Virus record (IMG/VR): IMGVR_UViG_3300043571_000305
Location: 1 to 37,216 of that record
Origin: a virus
Length of the DNA stretch: 37,216 nucleotides
Strand: one strand, 5' to 3'
The notes under the pieces are model-generated. The model had not been told where the DNA came from, did no database searches, and saw only the letters and a program-made list of their open reading frames with translations. This document shows positions 38 through 32,567 of this stretch, in pieces; the stretch's first letter is position 1; every line of letters starts with the position of its first letter. The translations under genes were made by a program, and so were the position numbers.

Positions 38-80
38 TGCCCCCCCCCCCCCCGCAAAAAGGCATAATAGCTTGATATAA
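1..80 (+). CDS. 3' part of the RHH protein gene that starts at 37019 (junction-spanning)
   Basis: If the ends are joined through the direct repeat, the frame from 37019 continues here to a TAA at 78-80, giving a protein of about 72 aa. The tail passes through a run of 13 C (41-53) read as prolines, so its exact length depends on correct reading of that homopolymer. The stop lies 2 nt before the GTG of the integrase gene, so the two genes look translationally coupled and transcribed together. Confidence 0.6.
   Translation, partial: AAMFERSERRGSAPPPPAKRHNSLI
41..53. repeat. C13 homopolymer
   Basis: Thirteen consecutive C beside the terminal repeat. The other end of the window shows a G-rich run (37195 onward) at the equivalent place, so the sequence just past the repeat disagrees between the two ends. 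This is a typical place for sequencing or assembly error, and it falls inside the last codons of the RHH gene. Confidence 0.8.
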
Positions 81-82
81 AG

Positions 83-1153
83 GTGGATACAGAGACAGTC
101 AAAGTCGGCAATTTTGCAGCCCACCTTTGGCTGGCCTCTGACGGACGCTGGAAATGGCACACCCACAAGGCCGGGCGGCGCGTCCTTTGCACCGCCAAAA
201 ACCTCGACCGCGCCCGCGACAAAGCCCGCGCCCAGCTTAAAGCCATCCGGGTGGGCAAGGCCGACTTGGCCGAGATCACTCCCGCCCTGCTCTCCGAGTT
301 CCAGCAGTGGCGAGCCACGCGGCTGGAATCGCCCAAGGTGTCCGAGGCCGTGACTCGCTACATGGCGCACCTCAACGATCGCAAGGTGCAAGAGACGCGC
401 ATTGTGGCCTCCGACCTTGCTAAGTTTGCCAAGGCCCACCCTTGCCGCATGAGCGAGGTCACTCCCGACCAGATCCGCGACTACCTCGACGGCCTGCCTG
501 TTGGCCCCCGCCGCTACAACAATGTCCGCACCGCGCTTGTCAGCTTCTTTTCGTGGGCGCGCAAGTCGGCGCTCATCCCTGACGGCATGACCGCGCCAGA
601 GCGCACACACACCAAGACCTTGGACACAAAGCCTGTGGCGATCTACACGCCGAAGGAGTTCCGCGCCCTGCTTGCCGCCGCCCCAAGCGAATGGCGACTC
701 GCCCTGGCAATCGGTGGCCTTGCTGGCCTACGCACCGAGGAGATCCAAGGACTGCGATGGGAGGACATCAAGCTCGGCAGAAAGCACATCGAGGTGCGGC
801 CCGAAATCTGTAAGACAAAACGCCGTCGCCTCGTTCCAATCCTGCCCGCTCTCGCCTCATGGATACGCAAGAGCGAACCGCAGCCCGGCGGCATGGTGGC
901 CCCGCAAGACCGCATCGACAACCTTGCCAAGCGGCTTCGTAGAAAAGCAGCCCTGTGGGTGAAGAACGGCTTGAGACATTCTTTTGGAAGTTACCGCTGC
1001 GCGGCGGTTAAAAGCGCGTCCCAAGTGGCTTTGGAAATGGGCAACTCCGAGGCCGTAGTCCGCAAGAACTACCTTGAAATGCAGGAAAGAAAGGCCGCAA
1101 CCGACTGGTTCAAAACTGGTTACTTTCCTGTCTCAAATTCTGTAAGTCGTTGA
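83..1153 (+). CDS. int: phage integrase, tyrosine recombinase
   Basis: 356 aa. Site-specific recombinase expected to join attP at 1163-1182 to a host tRNA gene. The N-terminal half has a SAM-like core-binding domain (about 85-165). The catalytic domain follows: Arg217 in GLAGLRTEEI, a beta-hairpin Lys near 244-246 (CKTKRRR), Arg298 in NGLRHSF and nucleophile Tyr330 in RKNYL. Two usual histidines are replaced by Asn (N295 in the HxxR box, N321 in MGNS), a variant I associate with integrases of Planctomycetes/Verrucomicrobia relatives. The start is GTG, with an AAAGG directly upstream overlapping the start region. The preceding RHH gene ends at 80, suggesting an RHH-int operon. Downstream lies the attP core, only 10 nt past the stop. 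Confidence 0.93.
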   Translation: MDTETVKVGNFAAHLWLASDGRWKWHTHKAGRRVLCTAKNLDRARDKARAQLKAIRVGKADLAEITPALLSEFQQWRATRLESPKVSEAVTRYMAHLNDRKVQETRIVASDLAKFAKAHPCRMSEVTPDQIRDYLDGLPVGPRRYNNVRTALVSFFSWARKSALIPDGMTAPERTHTKTLDTKPVAIYTPKEFRALLAAAPSEWRLALAIGGLAGLRTEEIQGLRWEDIKLGRKHIEVRPEICKTKRRRLVPILPALASWIRKSEPQPGGMVAPQDRIDNLAKRLRRKAALWVKNGLRHSFGSYRCAAVKSASQVALEMGNSEAVVRKNYLEMQERKAATDWFKTGYFPVSNSVSR

Positions 1154-4989: not shown

Positions 4990-7941
4990 TTAGTCAGCTT
5001 GTCCTGCGAGGTAGAAGACGCAGATTTCGATGGCTCCTGCGGTGAAGTTTGAGGTTTTGGCTGTCAGCGTGACTTCGCCGCCCGCCGTAAAACACTCGAT
5101 GGTTCCAGCCGTCCAGTCGCGGTTGTCGCTGGTCGTTCCAATCGCGGTTCCCGTGATGTCTCCCCAGCGATCGGCGTCTGTGCCGTCTCCAATTGTATAG
5201 CCTGTCGCGCCTGTCAGGGCCGTGCCGACTCGCGTGGTCACGCCGACAACCACTGCGCCGTCTGGGATGAATGTGCCTGTGGTAGTGGCCGATGCGCCAG
5301 AGAGAGCGGAGAGCGTTTGCTTCACGCTCTTGATGGTCATGCGCTGAAAGTTCGTAGAACTTGTGAACGTCCCATACATTCTAATTTCCTGCGCTGAAGT
5401 ATCGTTGCGGCTGGCCCAGACATTTGCGTTATCACGATACCAGCGCACATCAGCAGCGGCCCCCGATGGGCTTGTGCTTATGGAATAAAAGCTCGTGCTT
5501 CTCAGGGCGCATCCAACGGCTGTATTTGCTGAAACGGCGAGCAACTCTGTGCTTGCTGCCCACAAAGAAAAAAAGCCACTTTCGGAGCTAATGTAATTGG
5601 AAGCCCCCCCAAACCTTCTGCCGACAGCATCTCCCGATGGATTGATGGTAAACCTATTGGTGCCCCCCGTCTGAAGTTGCACCAAAAGCGAGTTGGCATT
5701 GCTTGCCGTATTAATGATATTCAGCTTGATAGCCGAAGGCGTTCCCGAGGTGTTCCAAGTGCCCGCAAGATCAATAAGGCTCTGCGCGTTGCTGCCTGTG
5801 AGCGAATAGCCCGTGACCGCATAAGCTGCGGTGTTGGCGGCGGGTGCGCCTGTGAGGGAGGTAAAAGCTGCGGTGTTTGGGGTGGTCGTTCCGAGGGCTG
5901 CGGGGCTGGCTGGGTCAAATGTTGACGTAGCCGTTAAGGTCGTTCCGCTAATCGACAGCCCCGATCCCGCTTCCAGATAGCGCAGTTTGCTCTCGCTATC
6001 GTCCCAGAAAACGATGCGGTCAGCATTTGGGTCATCGGCAACCAGATCAGACCCCGACACGCTCAAGACATCGGCTGTGGATGCGCCGACTGCGGTGACG
6101 CCGCTTCCGCCCGTAGCCGACAACTCCCCCGCAGACAGACTCAAGCCCGATCCGACTGTGATCTCCTCGACGGCGCCTGTGCTGGCGCTCGTCCTTCCGA
6201 GGATGCGGGCGGTGGCTTGGGTTAGGCCAGAGGCGGTGATGGAGCCAGAGGCGGCGAAGTCCGTGGCGTCTTCGGCGGCGGCGGTGCCGAGCGCAGGCAA
6301 GTTGTCGAGGGCGGTGTAGTCGGTCGTGCCAGCCAATTCCCCCCACACCGTGCCATTGTATCCGTAAAACTTATCATCGTCCTCGTCGTAGTAGATTTGC
6401 CCCGCGACAGGTGTAACGGGTTCCCCTGTGGGCGTGATGGCTACGCCGCCTTCAAATTTGATTTTGAACCGAGTGACCCAACTGCTGTTGTAAGTTCCAA
6501 ACAAAAAGTCTGGGCCTGCGGGCGTGTTGGGGATGCCAAGACCAAAGGCTCCGTAATAGGTCGGGCTTTCTGCGGTGTCCCAAAATTCAACGCCTGCTGA
6601 TCCACCTGCCAAAAATAGCGGCGGCTTGCCTGTACCATCGGGGGCAAAAAGCTCGTTGGGGTGATTGCTTTGATTTACCTCTGGCCCGCCCGCGATGATG
6701 CCAGACGTTGATGCGATGTTGTTGAAAGTTACATCGTCGGTGGTGCCAAGGTCTTGGTTGATATTGGCGAACGGATCGCTACCGCCACCAATCGCGGCAA
6801 CTCCGCCCGAAAGCTGAAGCGAGTCGCCATCGTCGGGAACTTGTGCGCCATCGCCGCTGTCTAATGTGGCTTGGTTTGACGGATTGGCGGCGTTCCATGC
6901 GGCAAGCACGGTATCCACATCGTCCACGCCATCAAAAGTAAGCGTTATGTTGTTGCCCGCCGTGCCTGCGGTGTTGGCTATGATTGTGACTTCTTCGGAA
7001 AAGGTTTCGTTGTCCCCGATGCCCGTGTAGCTGGCGGCAATGGCGGGTGTGCCTGCGAGGTGGCTGGAGGCGTGCGCCGTGGGCGTCCTCGCGTCACTCA
7101 ACCGCGCATCATTACCCTCGCAAAAGCTCCCTGCCGCCGTGCCGAAAGAACCCGCCTCGATGACGCCATTTGTGCCTGTTTTGAGCGGGAGGTTGGCGGT
7201 GGTGCCGATGGCTCCCGCGTTGGTTAGGTTGCCGTGGGTGTGATTACCAGCCGAAACATCGTCCGCACCTGTTCCGACATTTTTGCCAGCGGCAGTGCCG
7301 CGCAAGGTCGGGTTGATGCGCTGCCCGACAACCGCCTCCCATTGGTCGCCTGTCAGACGATCCCACGACGAGGGTGCGGGCGATGTTTGGCCTACTTCAA
7401 CGCTCCACGAAGTGACTTGCCACGGTGTTGTCGTGTTTTGCGCCGAGGAATAAATGTCGTCGGAGTTGTAGGACACCATCCAAGCTGCTCCGTCCCAATA
7501 AATGAAACTGTCCTTGTCTTTGTAGTAGATGCCCTTGCCGCCAAAAACCCCGCCGTAGACGTAGACGCCGTTTGTGTTGGCGTTGCCCGCATCCAAGATT
7601 TCCAGACCTTGAAAGAATAAGTCTGCCGCTTCGTGAGTGTGGTTAAGGGCGGCAACCGTGACTACTCCCGTTTGCCCATTGACCGAAGTGACTGCGCCCG
7701 ACTCATTGGCCCACGCAGGTATGCCGTTGGCAACTTTGAGAACTTGGCCGTTCGTGCCGATGGGCAGGCGGGCATTGGTGCTGTTTGCTGCCCGGTAAAG
7801 CGTGTCGCCCGTTGTCGTCAGCGGCAGGCCCGCGACATCGCCGGGGTCGCCCTTGGGGCCGACTGGCCCTTGCGGCCCCTGTTCGATGACCTTGATGACT
7901 TCGGTAGCCGCGCCTGTGCGTATGGTAATCGTTTCGCCCAT
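4990..7941 (-). CDS. large tail fibre protein with collagen-like motif
   Basis: 983 aa. It begins with a short attachment segment, a collagen-like stretch (GPQGPVGPKGDPGD, about 22-35), then repeated fibre elements of the kind TLYRAANSTNARLPIGTNGQVL and NDARLSDARTPTAHASSH, with many Thr, Ser, Gly and Ala. The pattern is of a long trimeric fibre with beta-structured repeats. Asp/Gly-rich loops (DDDDKFYGYNGTVWGE) are typical of distal binding regions. The last ~150 residues are the likely tip that contacts the host. The gene starts 4 nt after the preceding stop. Confidence 0.8.
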   Translation of the reverse strand: MGETITIRTGAATEVIKVIEQGPQGPVGPKGDPGDVAGLPLTTTGDTLYRAANSTNARLPIGTNGQVLKVANGIPAWANESGAVTSVNGQTGVVTVAALNHTHEAADLFFQGLEILDAGNANTNGVYVYGGVFGGKGIYYKDKDSFIYWDGAAWMVSYNSDDIYSSAQNTTTPWQVTSWSVEVGQTSPAPSSWDRLTGDQWEAVVGQRINPTLRGTAAGKNVGTGADDVSAGNHTHGNLTNAGAIGTTANLPLKTGTNGVIEAGSFGTAAGSFCEGNDARLSDARTPTAHASSHLAGTPAIAASYTGIGDNETFSEEVTIIANTAGTAGNNITLTFDGVDDVDTVLAAWNAANPSNQATLDSGDGAQVPDDGDSLQLSGGVAAIGGGSDPFANINQDLGTTDDVTFNNIASTSGIIAGGPEVNQSNHPNELFAPDGTGKPPLFLAGGSAGVEFWDTAESPTYYGAFGLGIPNTPAGPDFLFGTYNSSWVTRFKIKFEGGVAITPTGEPVTPVAGQIYYDEDDDKFYGYNGTVWGELAGTTDYTALDNLPALGTAAAEDATDFAASGSITASGLTQATARILGRTSASTGAVEEITVGSGLSLSAGELSATGGSGVTAVGASTADVLSVSGSDLVADDPNADRIVFWDDSESKLRYLEAGSGLSISGTTLTATSTFDPASPAALGTTTPNTAAFTSLTGAPAANTAAYAVTGYSLTGSNAQSLIDLAGTWNTSGTPSAIKLNIINTASNANSLLVQLQTGGTNRFTINPSGDAVGRRFGGASNYISSESGFFSLWAASTELLAVSANTAVGCALRSTSFYSISTSPSGAAADVRWYRDNANVWASRNDTSAQEIRMYGTFTSSTNFQRMTIKSVKQTLSALSGASATTTGTFIPDGAVVVGVTTRVGTALTGATGYTIGDGTDADRWGDITGTAIGTTSDNRDWTAGTIECFTAGGEVTLTAKTSNFTAGAIEICVFYLAGQAD

Positions 7942-7945
7942 GTGA

Positions 7946-8308
7946 TTAGCGGGTGATTTCGCGGCTAACTACTGCGCGGCCTTCCATAAGGCGGCGGACG
8001 GCCCCGGATGGGTTCACGACTTCCAAGTCGTAAAGGTAGGTTGCCGCCGTGATCGTGGCAGAGGAGATGGCCGAATAGGAAAGACCGATCACACCATTGC
8101 TTGCAGCCGTCAGCGTATTGGTCGCGGTGGAGAGTGAAACGGTGGGCGATGCGGCCTCTGCCGTGGTGCGGAGCATCATCCGAGCGGACCAGCCGCTAAG
8201 ATCCACCGGGTCGCCGTCTGCGGACCATTCAATCGTCGTGTCCCACGTTTGGCCTTGGGGAAGGCAGAGATCAACTTGCGCGGGGCATTTGCCGTAAAGT
8301 TCGCTCAT
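7946..8308 (-). CDS. beta-sandwich tail accessory protein
   Basis: 120 aa with alternating strands: LCLPQGQTWDTTIEW, PVDLSGWSARMMLRT and YLYDLEVVNPSGAVRRLMEG. This layout (intrinsic drag term, linear combination of strands, then a GxxxRxLxGxxxV ending) is seen in small baseplate or fibre-adaptor proteins of siphophages. It precedes the main fibre gene, so an adaptor role is reasonable. It overlaps the upstream small membrane gene. Confidence 0.6.
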   Translation of the reverse strand: MSELYGKCPAQVDLCLPQGQTWDTTIEWSADGDPVDLSGWSARMMLRTTAEAASPTVSLSTATNTLTAASNGVIGLSYSAISSATITAATYLYDLEVVNPSGAVRRLMEGRAVVSREITR

Positions 8309-10134: not shown

Positions 10135-10156
10135 CCTGCGGGACGGCAGGTGTCAA
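10132..10156 (-). promoter_or_regulatory. TTGACA-N16-ATG module (tail protein start)
   Basis: TTGACA (complement of 10151-10156) is 16 nt before the ATG at 10134. The spacer is one hairpin, CCTGC-CGTCCC-GCAGG, ending directly at the start codon. Confidence 0.55.
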
Positions 10157-14873: not shown

Positions 14874-15493
14874 CTATACGCCGCCTGTCAGCGCGTCGGC
14901 GAGCAGGGCGTCGATGCTGGCAGCCCCGGTTTCTCCGCTATCGGCCCAGCGTGGCGTGCGGCCGGAGGCGATGTCGTCCCACAGCAAAAGCTGGTTTAGC
15001 GCCGCCAGCGGCAAATGCCAGATGGCCTGGTCGATGGAGATCCCGTATTTGGCGACCCGCGCGGCCAGGCAAAGCTGCCAGGCCGGTCGGGCCTTCAGAC
15101 TTTTGGGCCGTCGGCAGCAGGCTCCACGCTGGTGCTTTGCGTGATGGTGGCGGCCACGCGCTCCATCTGCCCGGTGATCCAGGGCGTGAAGGCAAACATG
15201 TCGGCCGGTGCCTGCTTGTCCATCCACTCGTAAACGTCGGCGCGCAAGTCGTCCAGGGTGGCGATCCTGCGGCGGATGTCGGTGATCGGCATGGAGTGCA
15301 GGTAGATGAACGAATACACCGCAAAAGCGTAGTCGCCGTCGGGCTCGCCCGTGACAAAGCTGTTTTTCAGCCGCGTCAGCAGACTCCAGGTCGCGGCCGT
15401 GACAGGCCGCAGGGTGATGCCAGCAATTTGTTCCTCGCCGCCAAGGGCCGAAGCCTCGAGCAGCACATCTCTTTTTTCGGGGTCAATATCCAT
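14874..15493 (-). CDS. tail assembly chaperone GT (-1 frameshift product)
   Basis: Translation begins at 15493 and, after the slippery C CCA AAA at 15101-15107, shifts -1 and continues to the stop at 14874. The product is 131 aa of G plus 75 aa of T, 206 aa. The T part (IWHLPLAALNQLLLWDDI) has the expected helical interaction region. GT proteins guide tape-measure and tube subunits during tail assembly and are not in the virion. The gene lies between tail tube and tape measure genes, as in lambda. There is no independent start codon for the T part, which supports frameshifting. Confidence 0.85.
15080..15107 (-). promoter_or_regulatory. programmed -1 frameshift signal
   Basis: The heptamer CCCAAAA (15101-15107, minus) is in frame as C CCA AAA. 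Six nt later (GTCTGA, containing the zero-frame stop) a hairpin AGGCC-CGACC-GGCCT (15080-15094) begins. Slippery heptamer, spacing and hairpin follow the standard -1 frameshift arrangement. Confidence 0.85.
15095..15493 (-). CDS. tail assembly chaperone G (unshifted product)
   Basis: 132 aa, ending ...DGPKV at a TGA 3 nt after the slippery heptamer. It is acidic to neutral, with helical segments (LLTRLKNSFV; TDIRRRIATLDDLRADVYEWM). Made in excess over GT in lambda-like phages. The start ATG at 15493 is 16 nt from TTGACA and lies at the apex of an 8-bp hairpin (GGTCAATA/TATTGACC). The preceding gene ends in a terminator, so this gene may begin its own transcript. Confidence 0.85.
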   Translation of the reverse strand: MDIDPEKRDVLLEASALGGEEQIAGITLRPVTAATWSLLTRLKNSFVTGEPDGDYAFAVYSFIYLHSMPITDIRRRIATLDDLRADVYEWMDKQAPADMFAFTPWITGQMERVAATITQSTSVEPAADGPKV

Positions 15494-15515
15494 ATTGACC
15501 GCATGGCGCTGTCAA
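15491..15515 (-). promoter_or_regulatory. TTGACA-N16-ATG module (tail chaperone start)
   Basis: TTGACA (complement of 15510-15515) is 16 nt before the ATG at 15493 and touches the T-tract of the upstream terminator. The ATG is at the tip of the hairpin GGTCAATA-TGGA-TATTGACC. Confidence 0.55.
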
Positions 15516-16356: not shown

Positions 16357-16378
16357 AATACGTATGGCGGTTTGTCAA
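16354..16378 (-). promoter_or_regulatory. TTGACA-N16-ATG module (tail tube start)
   Basis: TTGACA (complement of 16373-16378) is 16 nt before the ATG. An 8-bp hairpin, CCGCCATA-CGTAT-TATGGCGG, has the start codon in its 3' arm. Confidence 0.55.
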
Positions 16379-16598: not shown

Positions 16599-17010
16599 AG
16601 GATACAGGGTCAAATTCAAGGCCCCAAACTTTCACAATGTCGGTGGCGTTGACGTTGGCGAGGAAGTTGGGACCGTCCACGGTGGCCCAGAGGTCGCGCC
16701 AAAGCCCCTTAAAGCCGGCGGCGCCTTCGTCGTCGTCTTCGCTATCGGGCAGGCGGCGCTCGGCGCGTTCGTCATCAGGCGTCTGGTCGGCGGCTGTGGT
16801 GAGCGTAATGCTGACGCGGGCGTTCCACGTCATCATGCCAAGCACGAGCTCGTCGAGTTTCTCGGCGCGGATGGCGATCATGGGCAAGCTGTCTTCGTCG
16901 GACTCGTCGGCGGAGGTGATGCGGCACCCGGCAAGGTTGGCGTCGGCGCTGAGAACCGTATCCACGGCGCGCTCTAGGGATTCTTCAAGGCTGTAAGCGG
17001 GGGCGCTCAT
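16522..17010 (-). CDS. tail completion / minor tail protein (lambda Z/U position)
   Basis: 162 aa. N-terminal helices (SLEESLERAVDTVLSAD), a middle strand region (LVLGMMTWNARVSITLTTAADQ), an acidic loop (PDSEDDDEG) and a C-terminal strand pair (RSFRRSINFRLWVNEAYP). This is the outline of tail-terminator/completion proteins. It overlaps the upstream connector gene by ATGA. Confidence 0.6.
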   Translation of the reverse strand: MSAPAYSLEESLERAVDTVLSADANLAGCRITSADESDEDSLPMIAIRAEKLDELVLGMMTWNARVSITLTTAADQTPDDERAERRLPDSEDDDEGAAGFKGLWRDLWATVDGPNFLANVNATDIVKVWGLEFDPVSYENETRSFRRSINFRLWVNEAYPTT

Positions 17011-17312
17011 TTGCTGTCGGGGCTTTGCAGGGTCAGGTCGATGGTGGCGGTGTCGGTGTCGATGCCGGTGATGCGGTAGCGGCGGTCTTGGAATTTGACG
17101 ATGCCGCCGAGGCGGAAGGTTGGTGCGCCGACCTTGAGCACGGTAGCGGTCAGTCCCCTCGCCGCCTCAAAGCCGCCTTCGCCGAGTTGGTTGCCATAGG
17201 TTTCCTCTCCCACCACGGCCAGATAGGTGCGCTCGCGGTATTCGATCTGGTCGCGGATCGTGCCGACTGCTTCGGTGCTGGCTGCGGTGTAAGCCTGGGC
17301 GAACTGTGACAT
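17007..17312 (-). CDS. head-tail joining protein (FII-like by position)
   Basis: 101 aa. The second half is beta-rich (TFRLGGIVKFQDRRYRITGID then TATIDLTLQSP), similar in outline to small head-tail joining proteins that have a G-x-(I/V)-x-(F/Y)-x-(D/G)-x-x-Y-x-(I/V) strand. It lies between the capsid/glycosyltransferase block and the tail completion gene, the expected place for a connector. Confidence 0.6.
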   Translation of the reverse strand: MSQFAQAYTAASTEAVGTIRDQIEYRERTYLAVVGEETYGNQLGEGGFEAARGLTATVLKVGAPTFRLGGIVKFQDRRYRITGIDTDTATIDLTLQSPDSK

Positions 17313-17315
17313 TTG

Positions 17316-18242
17316 TTAGAGCGCCTTGTCAGCGGCGGCGAAGATGGATCGCCAAACCTCGCAGGGATTGAGCCGCTCGCGGCAAAAGCGTTGGCCCGAC
17401 GAGGCAATGCCCTGCCATTCGGGAAACTTCAGATCTTCGACCCATGTGCAAAGCTCGTCGCCTGTGATGCCTTCGGGCATGGCAAGGCGTTGCTCGCGGT
17501 TCTTAAAATGCTCGCATTCGGGGTCAAGCGGCTGCACCTCGACCACCAATGCTCCGCACGAAGCGGCTTCGTAGACGCGAATGCTGTGACCCCTGCCGTT
17601 GGCGGGTGGGCAAAATACCCCTGCATACTTGCTGTATGCATCGGCCACCAGATGCGCGGTGCTGGCGTGGCGCGGGATGTTCAAGATGTCGATAAGGCCG
17701 CGCGATTGAAGTGCGCCCAAAAGCCGCCTGCGCTCGCTGTAGATCCCCGGCCAGTAGTCGTTGACGTGGCCGACGAAACAAAACCGCTGGATACGTTCGG
17801 CCAGCGGGGGGCCAGGGCGGAAGGTGTCGGTGGCAACCCAGAAGGGCAGCGTCTCGGCTTTGCGCCCAAAGCGGTGCATTTCCTCGGTGTCGCTGCTCTG
17901 TCCGCAAATGTAGAAATCTGCGTAGTCGGCGGCTTCTTCAAATTGACGATAGCCCGGGAAGGCATTGCCCCATGTGTATTCGGCCACGAGACTGATGATG
18001 GGCTTGCCAAGGGCGCGCAAATTGTCGCCGTGCTGCGCGATGAATCCGCGAAGCTGAAACGGGGAATACAGCGCGATGCAATCGGCGGCGGATTCACGCA
18101 GCGCATTGATGACGGCTTGCGGTTCTTGCGGGAACTCGATGACGTTGATCGCCATTCCGGCCTGCGAGAGTTGCCGGAATGCGTGCTGGCCGACAGACGC
18201 TGGCTCTTCGCCAATATACAAAATATCAGCGGTCTTTATCAT
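17316..18242 (-). CDS. glycosyltransferase, GT-B-like
   Basis: 308 aa. The C-terminal third carries the nucleotide-sugar donor region: GRGHSIRVYEAASCGALVVEV, where E of YEAASCG is the conserved Glu of GT4-like or Glyco_trans_1_2 proteins, followed by a distal segment. The N-terminal part (DILYIGEEPASVGQHAF...) is a Rossmann-like acceptor domain. It should transfer a sugar from a nucleotide donor to an unknown acceptor. Its ATG at 18242 overlaps the end of the GT2-type gene upstream, so both form one unit. A phage function could be glycosylation of a virion protein. Confidence 0.75.
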   Translation of the reverse strand: MIKTADILYIGEEPASVGQHAFRQLSQAGMAINVIEFPQEPQAVINALRESAADCIALYSPFQLRGFIAQHGDNLRALGKPIISLVAEYTWGNAFPGYRQFEEAADYADFYICGQSSDTEEMHRFGRKAETLPFWVATDTFRPGPPLAERIQRFCFVGHVNDYWPGIYSERRRLLGALQSRGLIDILNIPRHASTAHLVADAYSKYAGVFCPPANGRGHSIRVYEAASCGALVVEVQPLDPECEHFKNREQRLAMPEGITGDELCTWVEDLKFPEWQGIASSGQRFCRERLNPCEVWRSIFAAADKAL

Positions 18243-20028
18243 GCGCGGCAAACATGGCCTCGGTATCAGTGACAAAGCCCGGATTGGCTTGGAGGTAGTC
18301 GGGATTGCGCTGGCAAAAAAGGTCAAAGCCCTGCCTGTAGTTTTCGACGCTGTTGCTGCGCTCCGTGGTTTCGTGCGACGCCCCTCCCGCCGTTGGATGC
18401 AGGTGGCGGATAACGATGTCGCTTGGAACGATCCACTTGTTTTTCGTTGCGCGCCACGTCAATTCGGTGTCGGCGAACATGGAGCGGTAGCCGTCAAAAT
18501 AAATGCCGCCGCCGTAGCCCAGCCTTTCCGCCGCTTTGCGCGTGAGGCAAGGCGTGCAGATCAAGTCGTCGTCTCGCACCCCGTCGCCGATTTTTACGAC
18601 CGCCGGGCGCTTTGCGTTCCCGCCCAGCGCCTCGACGATGCGCTCGTCCCAATGCAGCGGCGGCGGCGCAAGGTCATCCTGCACATAGATAAGGATCTCG
18701 CCCGCCGAGGCGCGCGCGGCGGCGTTGGTCGCGGCAACGCAGTTTGTTTGCGCGAGGTTGCCCGCTGGCGAGGTTGCGTGGCGAAAGCGGCCAAGGATGC
18801 CCATGTCCGGGCTGTCGGCCTCCATGCCGAAAATGTGCTCGATGCGCTCGGGATTTTTGGCGTTGTCCAAAAACATTTTCCGCACCACGGCGGCTTGCTC
18901 CGGGCGCCCGCGCGTCGGGTGGATGATGCTGATGGTGGGTTCTTTTTGCGCTTTCAGCCGGGCTTTCTCGATGGCGTCGGCCTTGTCCAAGTCGCCAACC
19001 ATGCGAAGGAATTGCGTCCATAAGGTTTCCCCTGCCCAGCCGTAGAGGCCGTCGCGGTGCGTCCAGACCTTTTCCGCAGGGCGCGGCAGGGCCATCATGG
19101 AGCGCAAATAGGCTTCGGCTTTCTCTAGGTCGCCGAGATCGAGGTGCATGGCGCCAAGGAGGGCTAAGGCTTCGCGGCGGTTCGGTTGCGTGCGGTAAGC
19201 CGAATGTAGGGCCGTGAGCATGGCCTTGTATTCCGCGCTGTCCGTTTCAAGGATTTCGGGGCGGGCGAGTTCGCAGATGTTGAGGCAGAGTTCGTAGCGT
19301 TCGGTGGGTTTGAGGTCGGGATGAGCCAGGGCTTGCTTGGCAAGGGCCATCGCTTCGGTCTTGCGCCCGTGGCCCATGTATTCGCCGTGCAGATGGTAAA
19401 TCTCGGAGACGGTGCGCTCGGCTTCGGGGATCGACTCCAGAATGGTCAGGTTGCGGTTGTTGCCCTGCTTGGGTTCATCGTCGGGCAGATGCACCACGGT
19501 CGGCTCGTCGCACTTGGCAATGCGGGCGTCGGCGCCGAGTTGGAAATTTTCGTGGATGCGGTTCACCCACTTGCCTTTGTCGCGGCGGACGAGGCGCTCG
19601 CGGAGATTGTGGGCGATGCCGCGCCCGGCGACATTGTGGAACAGGGCGAAGGCGTCGAAGTTCTCGCCGTGCTTTTCAAGGAGTTCGTGCAGGGCGGGTG
19701 CGAAGTTTGGCCCTGGCGTATCGTCCGCGTCCACCCACAGCGCCCAAGGTTTGCTGGCAAGGTCGAAGGATTGCTGCCGTGCGGCCCCGAAATCATCGAC
19801 GTGCGGCCATTCGTTGCCGGGGGCGTTGGCATAGACATCATATTTGGCCCCGTGCTTCTGGCAGACTTCGGCAATCTTGATGCTCTTGGCTTCGGCCCCG
19901 GTGGCGTGAACCACCACCATCTCGCCGACGGCGGGGGCAAATTGAGTCAAGCAACGGTCAAGCCGTTTGGGTTCGTTGCCGACTATTACGCAAAGCGCGA
20001 TTTGCTCGCGCGGGCTTTGTTTCTCCAT
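18226..20028 (-). CDS. two-domain GT2 glycosyltransferase with TPR-like linker
   Basis: 600 aa. The N-terminal GT2 domain (1 to ~190) starts IALCVIVGNEPKRLDRCLTQF and has a DxD-type motif in WALWVDADDTPGP. The middle (~200-310) has helical repeats (EALALLGAMHLDLGDLEKAE). The C-terminal part (~345-560) begins TISIIHPTRGRPEQAAV and contains ILIYVQDDLAPPP, a second GT2-like domain with its own acidic motif. The two-domain design would allow addition of two sugars or binding of a polymer. It begins after a terminator at the end of the capsid gene. Confidence 0.8.
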   Translation of the reverse strand: MEKQSPREQIALCVIVGNEPKRLDRCLTQFAPAVGEMVVVHATGAEAKSIKIAEVCQKHGAKYDVYANAPGNEWPHVDDFGAARQQSFDLASKPWALWVDADDTPGPNFAPALHELLEKHGENFDAFALFHNVAGRGIAHNLRERLVRRDKGKWVNRIHENFQLGADARIAKCDEPTVVHLPDDEPKQGNNRNLTILESIPEAERTVSEIYHLHGEYMGHGRKTEAMALAKQALAHPDLKPTERYELCLNICELARPEILETDSAEYKAMLTALHSAYRTQPNRREALALLGAMHLDLGDLEKAEAYLRSMMALPRPAEKVWTHRDGLYGWAGETLWTQFLRMVGDLDKADAIEKARLKAQKEPTISIIHPTRGRPEQAAVVRKMFLDNAKNPERIEHIFGMEADSPDMGILGRFRHATSPAGNLAQTNCVAATNAAARASAGEILIYVQDDLAPPPLHWDERIVEALGGNAKRPAVVKIGDGVRDDDLICTPCLTRKAAERLGYGGGIYFDGYRSMFADTELTWRATKNKWIVPSDIVIRHLHPTAGGASHETTERSNSVENYRQGFDLFCQRNPDYLQANPGFVTDTEAMFAAHDKDR

Positions 20029-20051
20029 CTCGGCGGGTGCGCCGCTGTCAA
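20026..20051 (-). promoter_or_regulatory. TTGACA-N17-ATG module (GT2 start)
   Basis: TTGACA (complement of 20046-20051) is 17 nt before the ATG at 20028; the spacer is a hairpin CGGCG-CACC-CGCCG. It comes just after the capsid terminator. Confidence 0.5.
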
Positions 20052-20057
20052 CCGGAC

Positions 20058-20086
20058 AAACGAAAACCCCCGGCGTTGGCCGGGGG
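20058..20086 (-). terminator. intrinsic terminator after the major capsid gene
   Basis: CCCCCGGC (20067-20074) and GCCGGGGG (20079-20086) form an 8-bp GC stem with a GTTG/CAAC loop. On the minus strand TTTTCGTTT follows. It should end most transcripts of the capsid gene, raising its share over downstream genes. Confidence 0.8.
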
Positions 20087-20115: not shown

Positions 20116-21012
20116 CTACGCTCCGAGAGCGAGCTTAGCAGCCGCCGTGATTCCGCGAGCGTAGCCGTAGACGCACTCCATAGAGACGAACGAGCGTCCC
20201 GTGGCTGTCGAATAGTGGCGACGATAGGACATCGAGATGCCCGTCTGCGGATCAGTGACGGTTTCAGCGGCGATGTATTCGCTGGGCTCTTGAGGAGCCA
20301 AGGCGCGAATCGCCACGGCCATCGCGTTCGGGTGAACGGCGATACCGGACAAGCTGATGCTGTTGGTCGGGAGCACGAGGCTCTCGTAGACGTTCATGCC
20401 GAGGATGCGAGGAACACGGCCATCGGCAATCGTGTCACGAGCACCAAAGGCACTGGCATCCAACAGGCCGCTCTGCGAAAGAAGGGAATCATAGAGCGTC
20501 GTGTTGAGGATGAGGTTGCGGTCGGTCTGCGGCACTTTCGCGTCGGACAGCGCCTTGCGGAGCGAGCGAGCGTTGGTGATGGTGAAGGCCGAAAGGTTGG
20601 TCAGGGTCGCGGCAAACTGCGCGGCGCTGGAAGCGGTCGTGACGAAGGCACTATAAACGTCTTCAAGCACGGCCTGCGCCAGAGCTTTGCCCTGCTGGCG
20701 AGCGAACTTGGTGATCTCGGCAACCGAGGACTTGCTGAACTCGGTATCGGAGAGGCTGACGGTGACAATCTTGTGTTTGTCCACGTTGACGGTCACGTTG
20801 TTGAGTGTGCCGCCGAGGGACTCGTAGGAATTGTCGAAGGTCGTGGCCGACAAGTTGGCGACGAGAGGAACTTCAACCGAGGCGCCGCGACGGACGACTT
20901 CAGCCGAATACGATGTGGTCAGAATGGAGAGGCTCTCCAAATCTGCTGTCAGAGCTTCCAGCGCGGTTTGCGCGAGGAGGCGGTCATTCAGGTTTGATGC
21001 AATGGTTGCCAT
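20116..21012 (-). CDS. major capsid protein
   Basis: 298 aa, the usual size for an HK97-fold coat. The N-terminus (ATIASNLNDRLLAQTALEAL) is helical, then EVPLVANLSATTFDNSY and NVDKHKIVTVSLSDTEFS form the E-loop/P-domain pattern seen in capsid proteins, and the C-terminal part holds RSLRKALSDAKVPQTDRNLI (A domain). It starts 4 nt after the protease gene stop and ends with a strong terminator, as expected for the most abundant virion protein. Confidence 0.8.
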   Translation of the reverse strand: MATIASNLNDRLLAQTALEALTADLESLSILTTSYSAEVVRRGASVEVPLVANLSATTFDNSYESLGGTLNNVTVNVDKHKIVTVSLSDTEFSKSSVAEITKFARQQGKALAQAVLEDVYSAFVTTASSAAQFAATLTNLSAFTITNARSLRKALSDAKVPQTDRNLILNTTLYDSLLSQSGLLDASAFGARDTIADGRVPRILGMNVYESLVLPTNSISLSGIAVHPNAMAVAIRALAPQEPSEYIAAETVTDPQTGISMSYRRHYSTATGRSFVSMECVYGYARGITAAAKLALGA

Positions 21013-21016
21013 AAAA

Positions 21017-21511
21017 TTAGTAAGCGGACGCGATGATTTCGCGTTTGTTTTTGCGGAAATACTCCACGGCGTCAGAGCCGCTGAGTGAGTTGAAGATTTG
21101 CGCCGGGGTCAGTTCGGGCTCGGCCTGCATGACAGCCACGGGCTCAAGGCCAACAGAAGCCACGATTGCCGCAGCCTGCTCGCCAGCACTTTTGGACGTT
21201 GCCAGCAAATTGCTGATCTCTTCGTCCTTGCTGGCGACTTCGGAAGTGAGGCGCTCGACTTCGGCTTTGAGGGTTTCGAGTTCTTTGGCCGTCACTTCGT
21301 CGGCTTGCGCGCGGACGGTGTCGGCTTCGACTTTGGCGGAAAGCTCGGCCTGGAGGGCGTCAACCTTCGCTTGAAGTTCGGCGTTCATGTTATCCTCTGA
21401 GGAAGTGTCAACCGCCGCGTCGGTGACGGGCGCTTCGACAACCGGCTCCGCGACAACTTCGGCGGGGGCGGCCTCTTCGGCTTTGATGGTTTTCGCGGAT
21501 TTGCGGGACAT
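21017..21511 (-). CDS. nested scaffold protein(s) from internal starts
   Basis: From M205 the product is 164 aa: an acidic/Ala-rich linker (EEAAPAEVVAEPVVEAP), then coiled coil (ELQAKVDALQAELSAKVEA, TAKELETLKAEVERLTSEV). From M246 (21388) it is 123 aa. In lambda, Nu3 scaffold arises from a start within the protease gene C, and the same layout appears here. The support is the position of TTGACA before both ATGs; protein evidence is lacking. Confidence 0.55.
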   Translation of the reverse strand: MSRKSAKTIKAEEAAPAEVVAEPVVEAPVTDAAVDTSSEDNMNAELQAKVDALQAELSAKVEADTVRAQADEVTAKELETLKAEVERLTSEVASKDEEISNLLATSKSAGEQAAAIVASVGLEPVAVMQAEPELTPAQIFNSLSGSDAVEYFRKNKREIIASAY

Positions 21512-23933: not shown

Positions 23934-23955
23934 TGCTCACGCGCGGCGGTGTCAA
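23931..23955 (-). promoter_or_regulatory. TTGACA-N16-ATG module (joining protein start)
   Basis: TTGACA (complement of 23950-23955) is 16 nt before the ATG and contains the upstream TGA stop. The ATG sits in the loop of a hairpin formed by GCGCG(t)GAG and CTC-CGCGC. Confidence 0.5.
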
Positions 23956-29959: not shown

Positions 29960-30848
29960 CGAAAAACTCCACTCGTTGAATTGTCCCGTTCTCCCGTTGC
30001 CCGTTCGGCATCCGCACGAACTGCGACTTCAGCCAAGTCTTCGGGTCGCCACCCAGGCGAACGGCCTCCTCCATAAATTTACGGTCACTGGCCTCATCGG
30101 TCGCCCGATACCAGCCATGCAGCGACTTGCTGCCGCTGAAGACCACCATCCGCAGATCGCGGAACTCGCTTAACCAGATATGCCGCGCCGCCTGCTCGTC
30201 AGGCGTGGCCCCGTCATCAAACTCCACGACGATGTTCTGGCGCGGCCCCGTGTTGTCCAAGGTGTGCGCGGAAAGCTCGCCGTCCGACTTGCGCTTGCCC
30301 TCGAGAGCCGACATCGCGTTCGGCACGACGAACTCCCACATCCGCAACTGCCCGGCAAAAGCCGACATCGCCGCCGTCTCGAACTTCGCCACCCCGAGCC
30401 CCACGCAGGCAAGCACCTCGCTGCCGCCCAGCAATGAGCCAAGGAACCACTCAGGCGCGGTCTTCTCCATCTCCGCAGCATCCAGCGCCGACGCCTCCCG
30501 CAACTTCTCCAGCGACCACTCCCGCCGCTTAGACAGCCGGCGGCATTCGGCCTGCAATGTCTTATTCGGCACAGGCCACGGCCTCACCCGGGTGGTCCCT
30601 GTGCTCGGCGTCACCTCATAGGCGTATTGAATGGCCGACAAGATCTCGCGGTCAGGCGTGAACCGCCCACCGTTGTCCTCGCGCACCGCATCCACCATCC
30701 GCCGGATGATGTGATAAGCGCGGGCATGGCCGATCCCGTCATCGCGCAGCATACAGGCCCAGGCATAAATCTGCCCGTGCAAGCTGGACGCCTGCCGCTT
30801 GCGCTTGTTCGGGTTGCGGCACCAGGCGAGGAATTTGCTGTCGGTCAT
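29952..30848 (-). CDS. primase, archaeo-eukaryotic (AEP) type
   Basis: 298 aa. The C-terminal half has the AEP motifs: NIVVEFDDGA (acidic motif, 209-212), FSGSKSLHGWY (the S-x-H motif, 238-246) and QRVEFFD at the end. The N-terminal ~130 residues are helical and basic (KRKRQ), possibly for DNA contact. With the adjacent helicase it forms a minimal replisome. AEP primases can also fill gaps; priming is the simplest role. Overlaps the methyltransferase stop (ATGA). Confidence 0.7.
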   Translation of the reverse strand: MTDSKFLAWCRNPNKRKRQASSLHGQIYAWACMLRDDGIGHARAYHIIRRMVDAVREDNGGRFTPDREILSAIQYAYEVTPSTGTTRVRPWPVPNKTLQAECRRLSKRREWSLEKLREASALDAAEMEKTAPEWFLGSLLGGSEVLACVGLGVAKFETAAMSAFAGQLRMWEFVVPNAMSALEGKRKSDGELSAHTLDNTGPRQNIVVEFDDGATPDEQAARHIWLSEFRDLRMVVFSGSKSLHGWYRATDEASDRKFMEEAVRLGGDPKTWLKSQFVRMPNGQRENGTIQRVEFFDA

Positions 30849-32362
30849 GCGGCCTCCCCTAAAAACTCCGAGATCTGGTTGCTCTGGCTCATCGCTGCCA
30901 GCACAAGCGCCCGGGCGAGATGTCGCGGCACCGCGTTGCCGATTTGCTTGATGGCTTGCGTCTTCGTGCCGCTGAATTGGTAGTCGCGCGGAAACCCTTG
31001 GGCGGCGGCAAGCTCGTGCGCCTGGAGCATCCGAAAGCGGATGTCGAGCAGGTATCGGTTGCCGTCAACGACGACCTCGGGCCGCGCCAACCCGAAACGG
31101 TCCCGGGTGGTTGCCGTGCCAAGCGGCTCATTGACGCTTTGCGCCCGTCCGTTGCCGTAGTATTCGACCAGAAATGGCTCGATGAGCGCAATGGCTCCGG
31201 CAGTGCTGACAGTCGGGGCGGGCTCGCTCACGGGCCGCAGAGCGCCGCAGGACTGCTGCGGGAGCAGACAGGGCTCCACAAGACCGTGATGCACGCCGCC
31301 AGCGGTCACGGTGCCTAGCGGATCGCTAATGCTGCGGGCCGACGCGCGGCATTGCGCCTCGGACGTGCCGCGCATTTCGATCAAATACGGATGCGCCAGT
31401 GCAATCGTTCCGCCCTTGCCGGCAACAGTCGGAAGCGGCTGTTCCAAGCTGCGCGCCTTACGTTTGCCGTGATGAGCGACGTGGATTAGATACGGCTCAG
31501 TCAGCCCGAAGGCTCCGCCTTTGGCCGTGGTGATCGTCGGCAATGGTCGGTCGGCGTCTCGCACTGATCCGCCGTGTTCCATTGTCTGAATGAACGGTCG
31601 CAGGCCAAAGCGTTCTAGCCCGTCCATGATGCGCGCCATCGTCTTAGGCTTTAACGGGCGCTTGCGCTCGTAGATAGATTCCCCCGGAATGTCCCAGTCA
31701 ATAATCTGCTTGGCTGCCACCCAAGGCTTACGCCCGCCTAACAAATCACCCTCGCCCGCCGCCGCGTGCGTCGGATCGGGCCAGACAATCTTGCGCCTGC
31801 CGCGCACCGCTTGAACAAACAACCGGCGGCGTGTGGTGGGGTCGCCGTAGTTGGCCGCGCACAGGATCTTCCATTCGACGCGGTAGCCCAGACTTTCCAG
31901 CGCGCCAACCCACGCGGCGAACGTTGCGCCTTTTTTGGACTTCATTGGACGACCCTCCACGGTTAATCCTCCCCAGCCCAAAAACTCGGGCACATTCTCC
32001 ACAAGGATTGTCGGTGGCATAAGCGCATCGGCCCAGCGAATCACACACCACGCAGTCGCGCGGCTTTGCTCATTGATCGGCTTGCCACCTCGAGCAACCG
32101 AGTGATGTGTGCATTCCGGCGAAGCCCACAGCAAATCAAGCTCACCGGGGGCAAACAGGTCGCGCGGGTTCAGCGCATCGAGTGACGCGCAAAAGTGCCG
32201 CGCCTCGGGATGGTTGCGCGTGTGCGTCTCCACGGCGACGGGCCAATGGTTGATGGCCGTGAGCATCGGGCGATAGCCCAATGCCTCCACGGCCTCGCAC
32301 GCTCCAGTGGATGTGCCGCCCGCGCCACAGAACAGGTCAGCAATCTTAATTGCTTTAGACAA
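30845..32362 (-). CDS. C5-cytosine DNA methyltransferase with repeat-type target domain
   Basis: 505 aa from a TTG at 32362. AdoMet motif I DLFCGAGGTSTG; catalytic Cys84 in SPECTHHS (not the usual PPCQ); ENVPEF; TTRRRLF; C-terminal QGFPRDYQF and QIGNAVPRHLA. Between 269 and 434 are five imperfect repeats with the core PLPT(I/V)xxxGG..AL.EPYLI, replacing a normal target-recognition domain. No restriction enzyme is adjacent, so it probably protects phage DNA from host restriction. The N-terminal reading frame before 32362 is shadow of the neighbour. Confidence 0.85.
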   Translation of the reverse strand: MSKAIKIADLFCGAGGTSTGACEAVEALGYRPMLTAINHWPVAVETHTRNHPEARHFCASLDALNPRDLFAPGELDLLWASPECTHHSVARGGKPINEQSRATAWCVIRWADALMPPTILVENVPEFLGWGGLTVEGRPMKSKKGATFAAWVGALESLGYRVEWKILCAANYGDPTTRRRLFVQAVRGRRKIVWPDPTHAAAGEGDLLGGRKPWVAAKQIIDWDIPGESIYERKRPLKPKTMARIMDGLERFGLRPFIQTMEHGGSVRDADRPLPTITTAKGGAFGLTEPYLIHVAHHGKRKARSLEQPLPTVAGKGGTIALAHPYLIEMRGTSEAQCRASARSISDPLGTVTAGGVHHGLVEPCLLPQQSCGALRPVSEPAPTVSTAGAIALIEPFLVEYYGNGRAQSVNEPLGTATTRDRFGLARPEVVVDGNRYLLDIRFRMLQAHELAAAQGFPRDYQFSGTKTQAIKQIGNAVPRHLARALVLAAMSQSNQISEFLGEAA

Positions 32363-32567
32363 TCGGCACCTCCGGCAGTTCCATCCAATGCGTGATGACG
32401 CTGTCGATTTCCTCGGACGTGTGCGCGTTAAACCATCGGGCAAAAAACGCGCTCGATGTCTTCACGCCCGATTCAAAACACGCGATAAAATGGCACTCGC
32501 CATCGGTCGCCAGCACGCAACGCGGGTTGCCCGGGAGTTCCTTGTCGGCGAATGTCCACTCACTCAT
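32355..32567 (-). CDS. DUF551-type small protein
   Basis: 70 aa, beginning MSEWTFADKELPGNPRCVLA with the end THWMELPEVPIV. The W-(x)n-ELPG...VL start and HWM-x-LPE-x-P end are the DUF551 pattern, common in phages, function unknown. ATG at 32567; it overlaps both neighbours. Confidence 0.7.
   Translation of the reverse strand: MSEWTFADKELPGNPRCVLATDGECHFIACFESGVKTSSAFFARWFNAHTSEEIDSVITHWMELPEVPIV

Follow-up and report, generated by a model that had tools for sequence, protein, structure and literature searches.

Glycosylation of phage virions has been reported in few isolates and is usually viewed as an accessory trait. The enzymes SunS and ThuS modify polypeptides, as the titles of their PDB entries indicate. 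In Listeria, flagellin receives GlcNAc from GmaR, an enzyme of the GT-TPR type, the TPR part of which is proposed to bind the flagellin (PMC9638930). According to Freeman et al. 2023, as cited in PMC11256854, mycobacteriophages Che8 and Rita encode glycosyltransferases (GT) and carry sugars on the major capsid protein (MCP), while Maravista, which is related to Che8, has its GT genes close to the genome 3′ end (PMC11256854). Thus, the precedent invoked in a preliminary description of the DNA analyzed here, namely, glycosylated phages with GT genes in the structural cluster, was not borne out by Maravista.

The window, i.e., the whole stretch of DNA that was analyzed (37,216 b), was taken from record IMGVR_UViG_3300043571_000305 of an uncultured virus. 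Its late genes were all co-oriented on the minus strand and followed a lambda-like order, namely, TerL, a small ORF, a lambda-type portal, a ClpP-like protease and an MCP of the Phage_capsid_4 type, and 3′ of the MCP there were a hairpin, GT2 and GT-B genes, a weakly matched FII-like connector, a second connector and a tube candidate. The features of the slot between the MCP and the connector, and of its borders, were the following:

20116-21012, minus strand: major capsid protein (Phage_capsid_4), the most likely acceptor as the upstream neighbor of GT2; PF25209, E = 5.5e-8; PHROG 283, major head protein, E = 8.6e-25
20067-20086, minus strand: terminator-like hairpin between MCP and GT2, CCCCCGGC-CAAC-GCCGGGGG then TTTT; fold obtained for the window and for 21 relatives
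20046-20051, minus strand: TTGACA, 23 nt upstream of the GT2 start and retained in relatives; many other genes are preceded by this element at a distance of 19-24 nt
18226-20028, minus strand: GT2-TPR-GT-A glycosyltransferase, 600 aa; PF00535 above cut-off, AF2 pLDDT 89.5, fold of SunS/ThuS, profile match to GmaR at 3.6e-14
19459-20028, minus strand: N-terminal GT2 domain, residues 1-190, with an invariant DxDD; the most constant part by alignment, identity and dN/dS
18949-19458, minus strand: TPR/helical middle, residues 191-360; TPR models below cut-off, all-helical in the AF2 model
18229-18948, minus strand: C-terminal GT-A domain with QDD, residues 361-600; exchanged between relatives and shortened in some, by an identity step and discordant domain matrices
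17316-18242, minus strand: GT-B (GT4-like) glycosyltransferase, 308 aa, optional; AF2 pLDDT 92.5, GT-B fold matches, PF13524 in 9/12 homologues
17007-17312, minus strand: head-tail connector, lambda FII-like (weak), which closes the slot on its downstream side; match to PF05354 below cut-off (E = 0.08), assigned by position and conservation

The preliminary description had placed two glycosyltransferase genes between the capsid and connector genes, behind a capsid terminator, and this was confirmed by gene order, profiles, folds and the conserved hairpin. The two-domain build of GT2 and its overlap with a GT-B-like enzyme were likewise confirmed by two GT-A catalytic-type motifs, by the GT-B fold and by a gene overlap of 17 nt; the GT-B stop codon lies 3 nt before the connector ATG. 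The hairpin consists of an 8-bp GC stem followed by TTTT, and such a hairpin was present between MCP and GT2 in all 21 relatives examined, with the stem preserved by paired changes (e.g., in L012, L098 and L076), so that the terminator proposed after the capsid gene and upstream of GT2 was borne out. In the late unit, GT2 is thus preceded by an attenuator or terminator that is conserved. The terminator scan of the window did not list the hairpin at 20067-20086, though the fold and the TTTT are present, probably due to the stem being extended into the T run.

The TTGACA element occurs on the minus strand of the window at 20046-20051, 16373-16378, 15510-15515, 10151-10156 and 23950-23955, among others, with a strand bias of 14:1, and Shine-Dalgarno motifs are rare. 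In the window and 26 loci, the sequences of which are related and hence not independent, 131 of the 139 TTGACA elements within 60 nt upstream of 461 starts were spaced 19-24 nt from the start codon, with a peak at 22. The element was also found within the 3′ end of upstream genes and may therefore serve as a signal for translation. Among other observations on the window, a possible nested scaffold start was noted within the protease gene (21017-21387, minus strand; ATG near 21388, with TTGACA and AGAGGA upstream), which resembles lambda C/Nu3, and the overlapping ORFs 15095-15493 and 14874-15227 (minus strand; 14874-15493 together), upstream of the tape-measure candidate, are located where a G/GT-type frameshift pair would lie in lambda. 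A tyrosine-recombinase-like (integrase-like) ORF, read by eye, is located at window positions 71-1153 on the plus strand, opposite to the late genes; because of it, the phage is probably temperate. No tRNA was found in the window. Genome contigs scanned for GT homologues yielded only matches of 25-36% identity, in Clostridia, Armatimonadetes and similar assemblies, by which the host was not identified. A recent moron acquisition of GT2 and GT-B was not supported, as the GC and GC3 of both genes match those of the late neighbors and GT2 is near-universal in the group.

The GT2 protein matched PF00535 (Glycos_transf_2) with E = 1.4e-8 (35.3 bits vs. a cut-off of 23.3 bits), and PHROG glycosyltransferases were matched by both of its halves. 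The profile above cut-off, the GT-A fold according to the fold matches and the DxD-type motif assign it to the Pfam GT2 family. The two catalytic-type motifs, WVDADD (residues 98-103) and VQDD, are separated by TPR-like helices, and D100, D102 and D103 were invariant across 30 aligned GT2 sequences. Median dN/dS was 0.15 for the GT domain and 0.18 for the TPR part, which indicates purifying selection; the values for the C-terminal domain (0.40) and GT-B (0.55) come from divergent pairs and are not to be taken as positive selection. In the profile search, the closest solved structures were GmaR (3.6e-14), SunS (1.8e-11) and ThuS (4.2e-8), and the top Foldseek matches of the GT2 model were SunS and ThuS (7msn, 7msp, 7msk; 14-16% identity at the structure level). 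A GT2 domain joined to a TPR/helical part, with these enzymes nearest by both profile and fold, gives the protein the architecture of the GmaR/SunS-like class. Its TPR/helical middle is the probable protein-binding part, and the fold likeness to SunS and ThuS at such identity could be compatible with a changed acceptor.

The window GT-B protein matched PF13524 below cut-off (E = 0.008), and 9 of the 12 GT-B homologues matched this profile (best 8.7e-8); together with the GT-B fold, this supports a GT-B/GT4-like assignment, with the window copy itself below cut-off. Since the model (pLDDT 92.5) matched, in the fold search, GT4-type GT-B enzymes of many functions, the fold names no acceptor. A weak fold match was 9iqz, a glycosyltransferase of phage HY126, and the isolate search found no GT-B homologues among phage isolates.

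The association of GT2 with the capsid gene was assessed by a scan of IMG/VR seeded with an MCP alignment alone, which gave 79 contigs; four of these end at the MCP, leaving 75 informative. A GT2 homologue was found downstream of the MCP, on the same strand, in 73 of the 75, down to ~42% MCP identity, and over this range the GT2 identity to the window drops from 97% to ~36%. When the scan was seeded with GT2 only, the MCP lay upstream in all 41 loci. The gap from MCP to GT2 was ~80-130 nt in nearly all contigs and longer in three, namely, L013, where a DNA methylase lies between, L086 and L087. The exceptions without GT2 were L085 (MCP 48%, a connector candidate directly after the MCP) and the very distant L109; therefore, the capsid fold does not depend on GT2. 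The tail genes were less conserved than the MCP-GT2 link, several being unrecognizable in the same relatives. Because L008, L017 and the window share an identical MCP, yet their GT2 proteins are 72-75% identical, no simple co-variation of MCP and GT2 was seen. Linkage of a GT gene to virion genes across relatives (73/75) is a supporting, non-defining character of virion glycosylation systems, and position next to the MCP alone does not identify the acceptor.

The isolate search with GT2 returned only three podovirus records from Manatee Spring. In the unrelated podovirus MW202524 (L117), an SU10-type MCP gene is followed by a 165-aa gene and by a gene for a 761-aa GT2-TPR-GT-B protein, then by two more GT-annotated genes, later by methyltransferases and then by further structural genes. 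The podovirus resembles the window in that a GT2-TPR enzyme is encoded behind the MCP, although at a distance of one short gene, and in that further GT genes, here together with methyltransferase genes, precede the next structural genes. The podovirus differs in the SU10-type MCP, which has no detectable sequence similarity to the window MCP, in the fusion of GT-B to GT2-TPR in one chain and in a GT2 only 24% identical; TTGACA at the 19-24 nt spacing was not found in it. Because MW202524 fuses parts that are separate in the window, joint action of GT2 and GT-B in one pathway is suggested.

These data also bear on an unlikely alternative, according to which the acceptor is another late protein (tail tube, tail fiber or connector) and the place behind the MCP is merely convenient for late expression. 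The co-orientation of the late genes and the direct run of GT-B into the connector gene would suit it, as would the persistence of GT2 among relatives with widely varying tail and fiber genes; however, GT2 adjoins the MCP and not the tail genes over ~42-100% MCP identity, and the podovirus repeats the placement with a different capsid type.

The contents of the slot were variable. Of the two genes, the presence of which in close relatives the preliminary description had proposed to check, GT2 was conserved (73/75), whereas a GT-B homologue (33-93% identical) was found in only 11 of 51 complete MCP-connector slots. Three layouts recurred, namely, GT2 with GT-B, as in the window, GT2 alone, and a shortened GT2 with GT-B; the shortened GT2 (~462-469 aa) is cut in the second domain and lacks the QDD and the C-terminal part in the aligned sequences. 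Extras seen in single relatives were a further GT2 enzyme (L076), Methyltransf_24 (L086) and RMNT_CmcI/Methyltransf_24 (L104), and the GT2 protein of L086 holds an additional GT-A-like unit. The slot also takes non-sugar cargo, since in L013 an N6/N4 DNA methylase (6740-7981) is inserted between the MCP hairpin and GT2. Many relatives differed from the window mainly in the C-terminal GT domain, where the identity was 46-49%, as compared with 78-97% for the N-terminal GT domain and 84-88% for the TPR part. The N- and C-terminal domains were 90% and 60% identical between L008 and L017, 65% and 89% between L017 and L080, and 27% and 61% between L088 and L077, respectively. The domain identity matrices disagree; hence, whole C-terminal GT domains are exchanged on a GT2-TPR core that is itself conserved. 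In the compared sequences, the first GT domain and the TPR part hardly vary, and GT-B, a third GT or a methyltransferase is present in some relatives and absent from others.

Two further explanations concern acceptors outside the virion proteins. Modification of the host envelope (LPS/O-antigen), which would block superinfection or change the serotype as Gtr systems do in lysogens, would fit the integrase-like ORF (71-1153, plus strand) of a probably temperate phage, and GT-A and GT-B folds also serve surface polymers and glycans (fold matches to TarP/TarS and PglA). We consider it very improbable: neither GT2 nor GT-B has a membrane segment, and LPS conversion was therefore not supported; in place of the GtrA flippase and the membrane-anchored GtrB/GtrC of a Gtr O-antigen module, the neighbors are capsid and connector genes, and the genes stand in the late order behind the MCP terminator and not in a separate lysogenic-conversion unit. 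GT genes beside LPS genes, a pattern looked for as contrary to action on virion proteins, were shown by no relative.

The slightest probability of all is assigned to an anti-restriction role, in which 5hmC or 5hmU bases of the phage DNA would be glycosylated. A C5-cytosine methylase is encoded in the window (30845-32443) and the N6/N4 methylase of L013 adjoins GT2, but a C5-methylase was present in only 2 of 20 GT2-carrying relatives, TET/JBP was not found in 21 records (a search without a positive control), and GT2 is closest to polypeptide glycosyltransferases. No hmC/hmU or TET/JBP pathway was found in the window or relatives, the TET/JBP part of this search being uncontrolled as stated. 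With a C5-methylase in so few relatives, a DNA-modification partnership was not supported. GT genes beside DNA-modification genes, also looked for, formed no pattern, with the one methylase in L013 and sporadic C5-methylases.

Because of the MCP linkage, the likeness to polypeptide GTs, the lack of membrane segments and the sporadic C5-methylase, virion-protein glycosylation is the best reading, and LPS or DNA modification is unlikely. The slot is thus probably a module for glycosylation of virion proteins, with the MCP as the most likely acceptor. The earlier proposal that the enzymes act on virion proteins is supported in part, with good support for its direction through the MCP link (73/75) and the nearest solved relatives being polypeptide GTs. 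In such a module, GT2 would be a soluble cytosolic enzyme built like GmaR, and its TPR part would bind a virion protein, the MCP being the most likely one. Using a nucleotide-sugar of the host, the N-terminal GT2 domain would attach the first sugar, which would then be extended or capped by the exchangeable C-terminal GT-A and, where present, by GT-B, and related phages would then display differing outer glycans on a common core. The identity of the acceptor, the order of transfer, the sugars and the benefit (shielding, adsorption or stability) are the parts of this reading that we infer.

More tentatively, and with some doubt, the module can be regarded as belonging almost to the core of the capsid genes in many uncultured phages that form a large group. 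One sugar would be placed on the capsid by a constant enzyme, and the outer glycan would be varied by a C-terminal domain that can be swapped, together with an optional GT-B, an extra GT or a sugar O-methyltransferase, giving serotype-like diversity of the particle surface. The proposed variation of outer glycans by slot genes can be likened to bacterial O-antigen loci. The GT2-TPR enzyme accompanies the capsid gene throughout the group, and its placement recurs with a capsid type of no detectable sequence similarity. Should the capsid be modified by these enzymes, glycans on its surface would be a long-kept, diversifying trait that may affect how the particle adsorbs and how stable it is, and a GT2-TPR gene immediately behind that of the MCP would serve as a simple genomic marker predicting glycosylated virions.

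Compared with the described systems, the window GT2 is similar to GmaR (PDB 22ao/22ap; PMC9638930) in having an N-terminal GT2 domain followed by TPR and in being soluble, and flagellin, the GmaR acceptor, is a self-assembling structural protein, as the proposed virion-protein acceptor would be; however, an antirepressor domain follows in GmaR, whereas a second GT-A domain follows in the phage enzyme, the gene of which adjoins the capsid gene. The peptide S-glycosyltransferases SunS and ThuS are the best fold match and share a GT2 domain with a helical part, but their acceptor is a cysteine of a bacteriocin peptide and the identity is 14-16%. Che8 and Rita share phage-encoded GTs with the proposed system, and the sugars reported on their MCP are what is proposed here; Maravista differs in that its GT genes lie near the genome 3′ end, outside an MCP-connector slot. 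Thus, glycosylation of phage virions is already known from mycobacteriophage capsids, according to PMC11256854, and what is new here is the near-invariant linkage to the capsid gene and the layout of a constant core with swappable outer parts.
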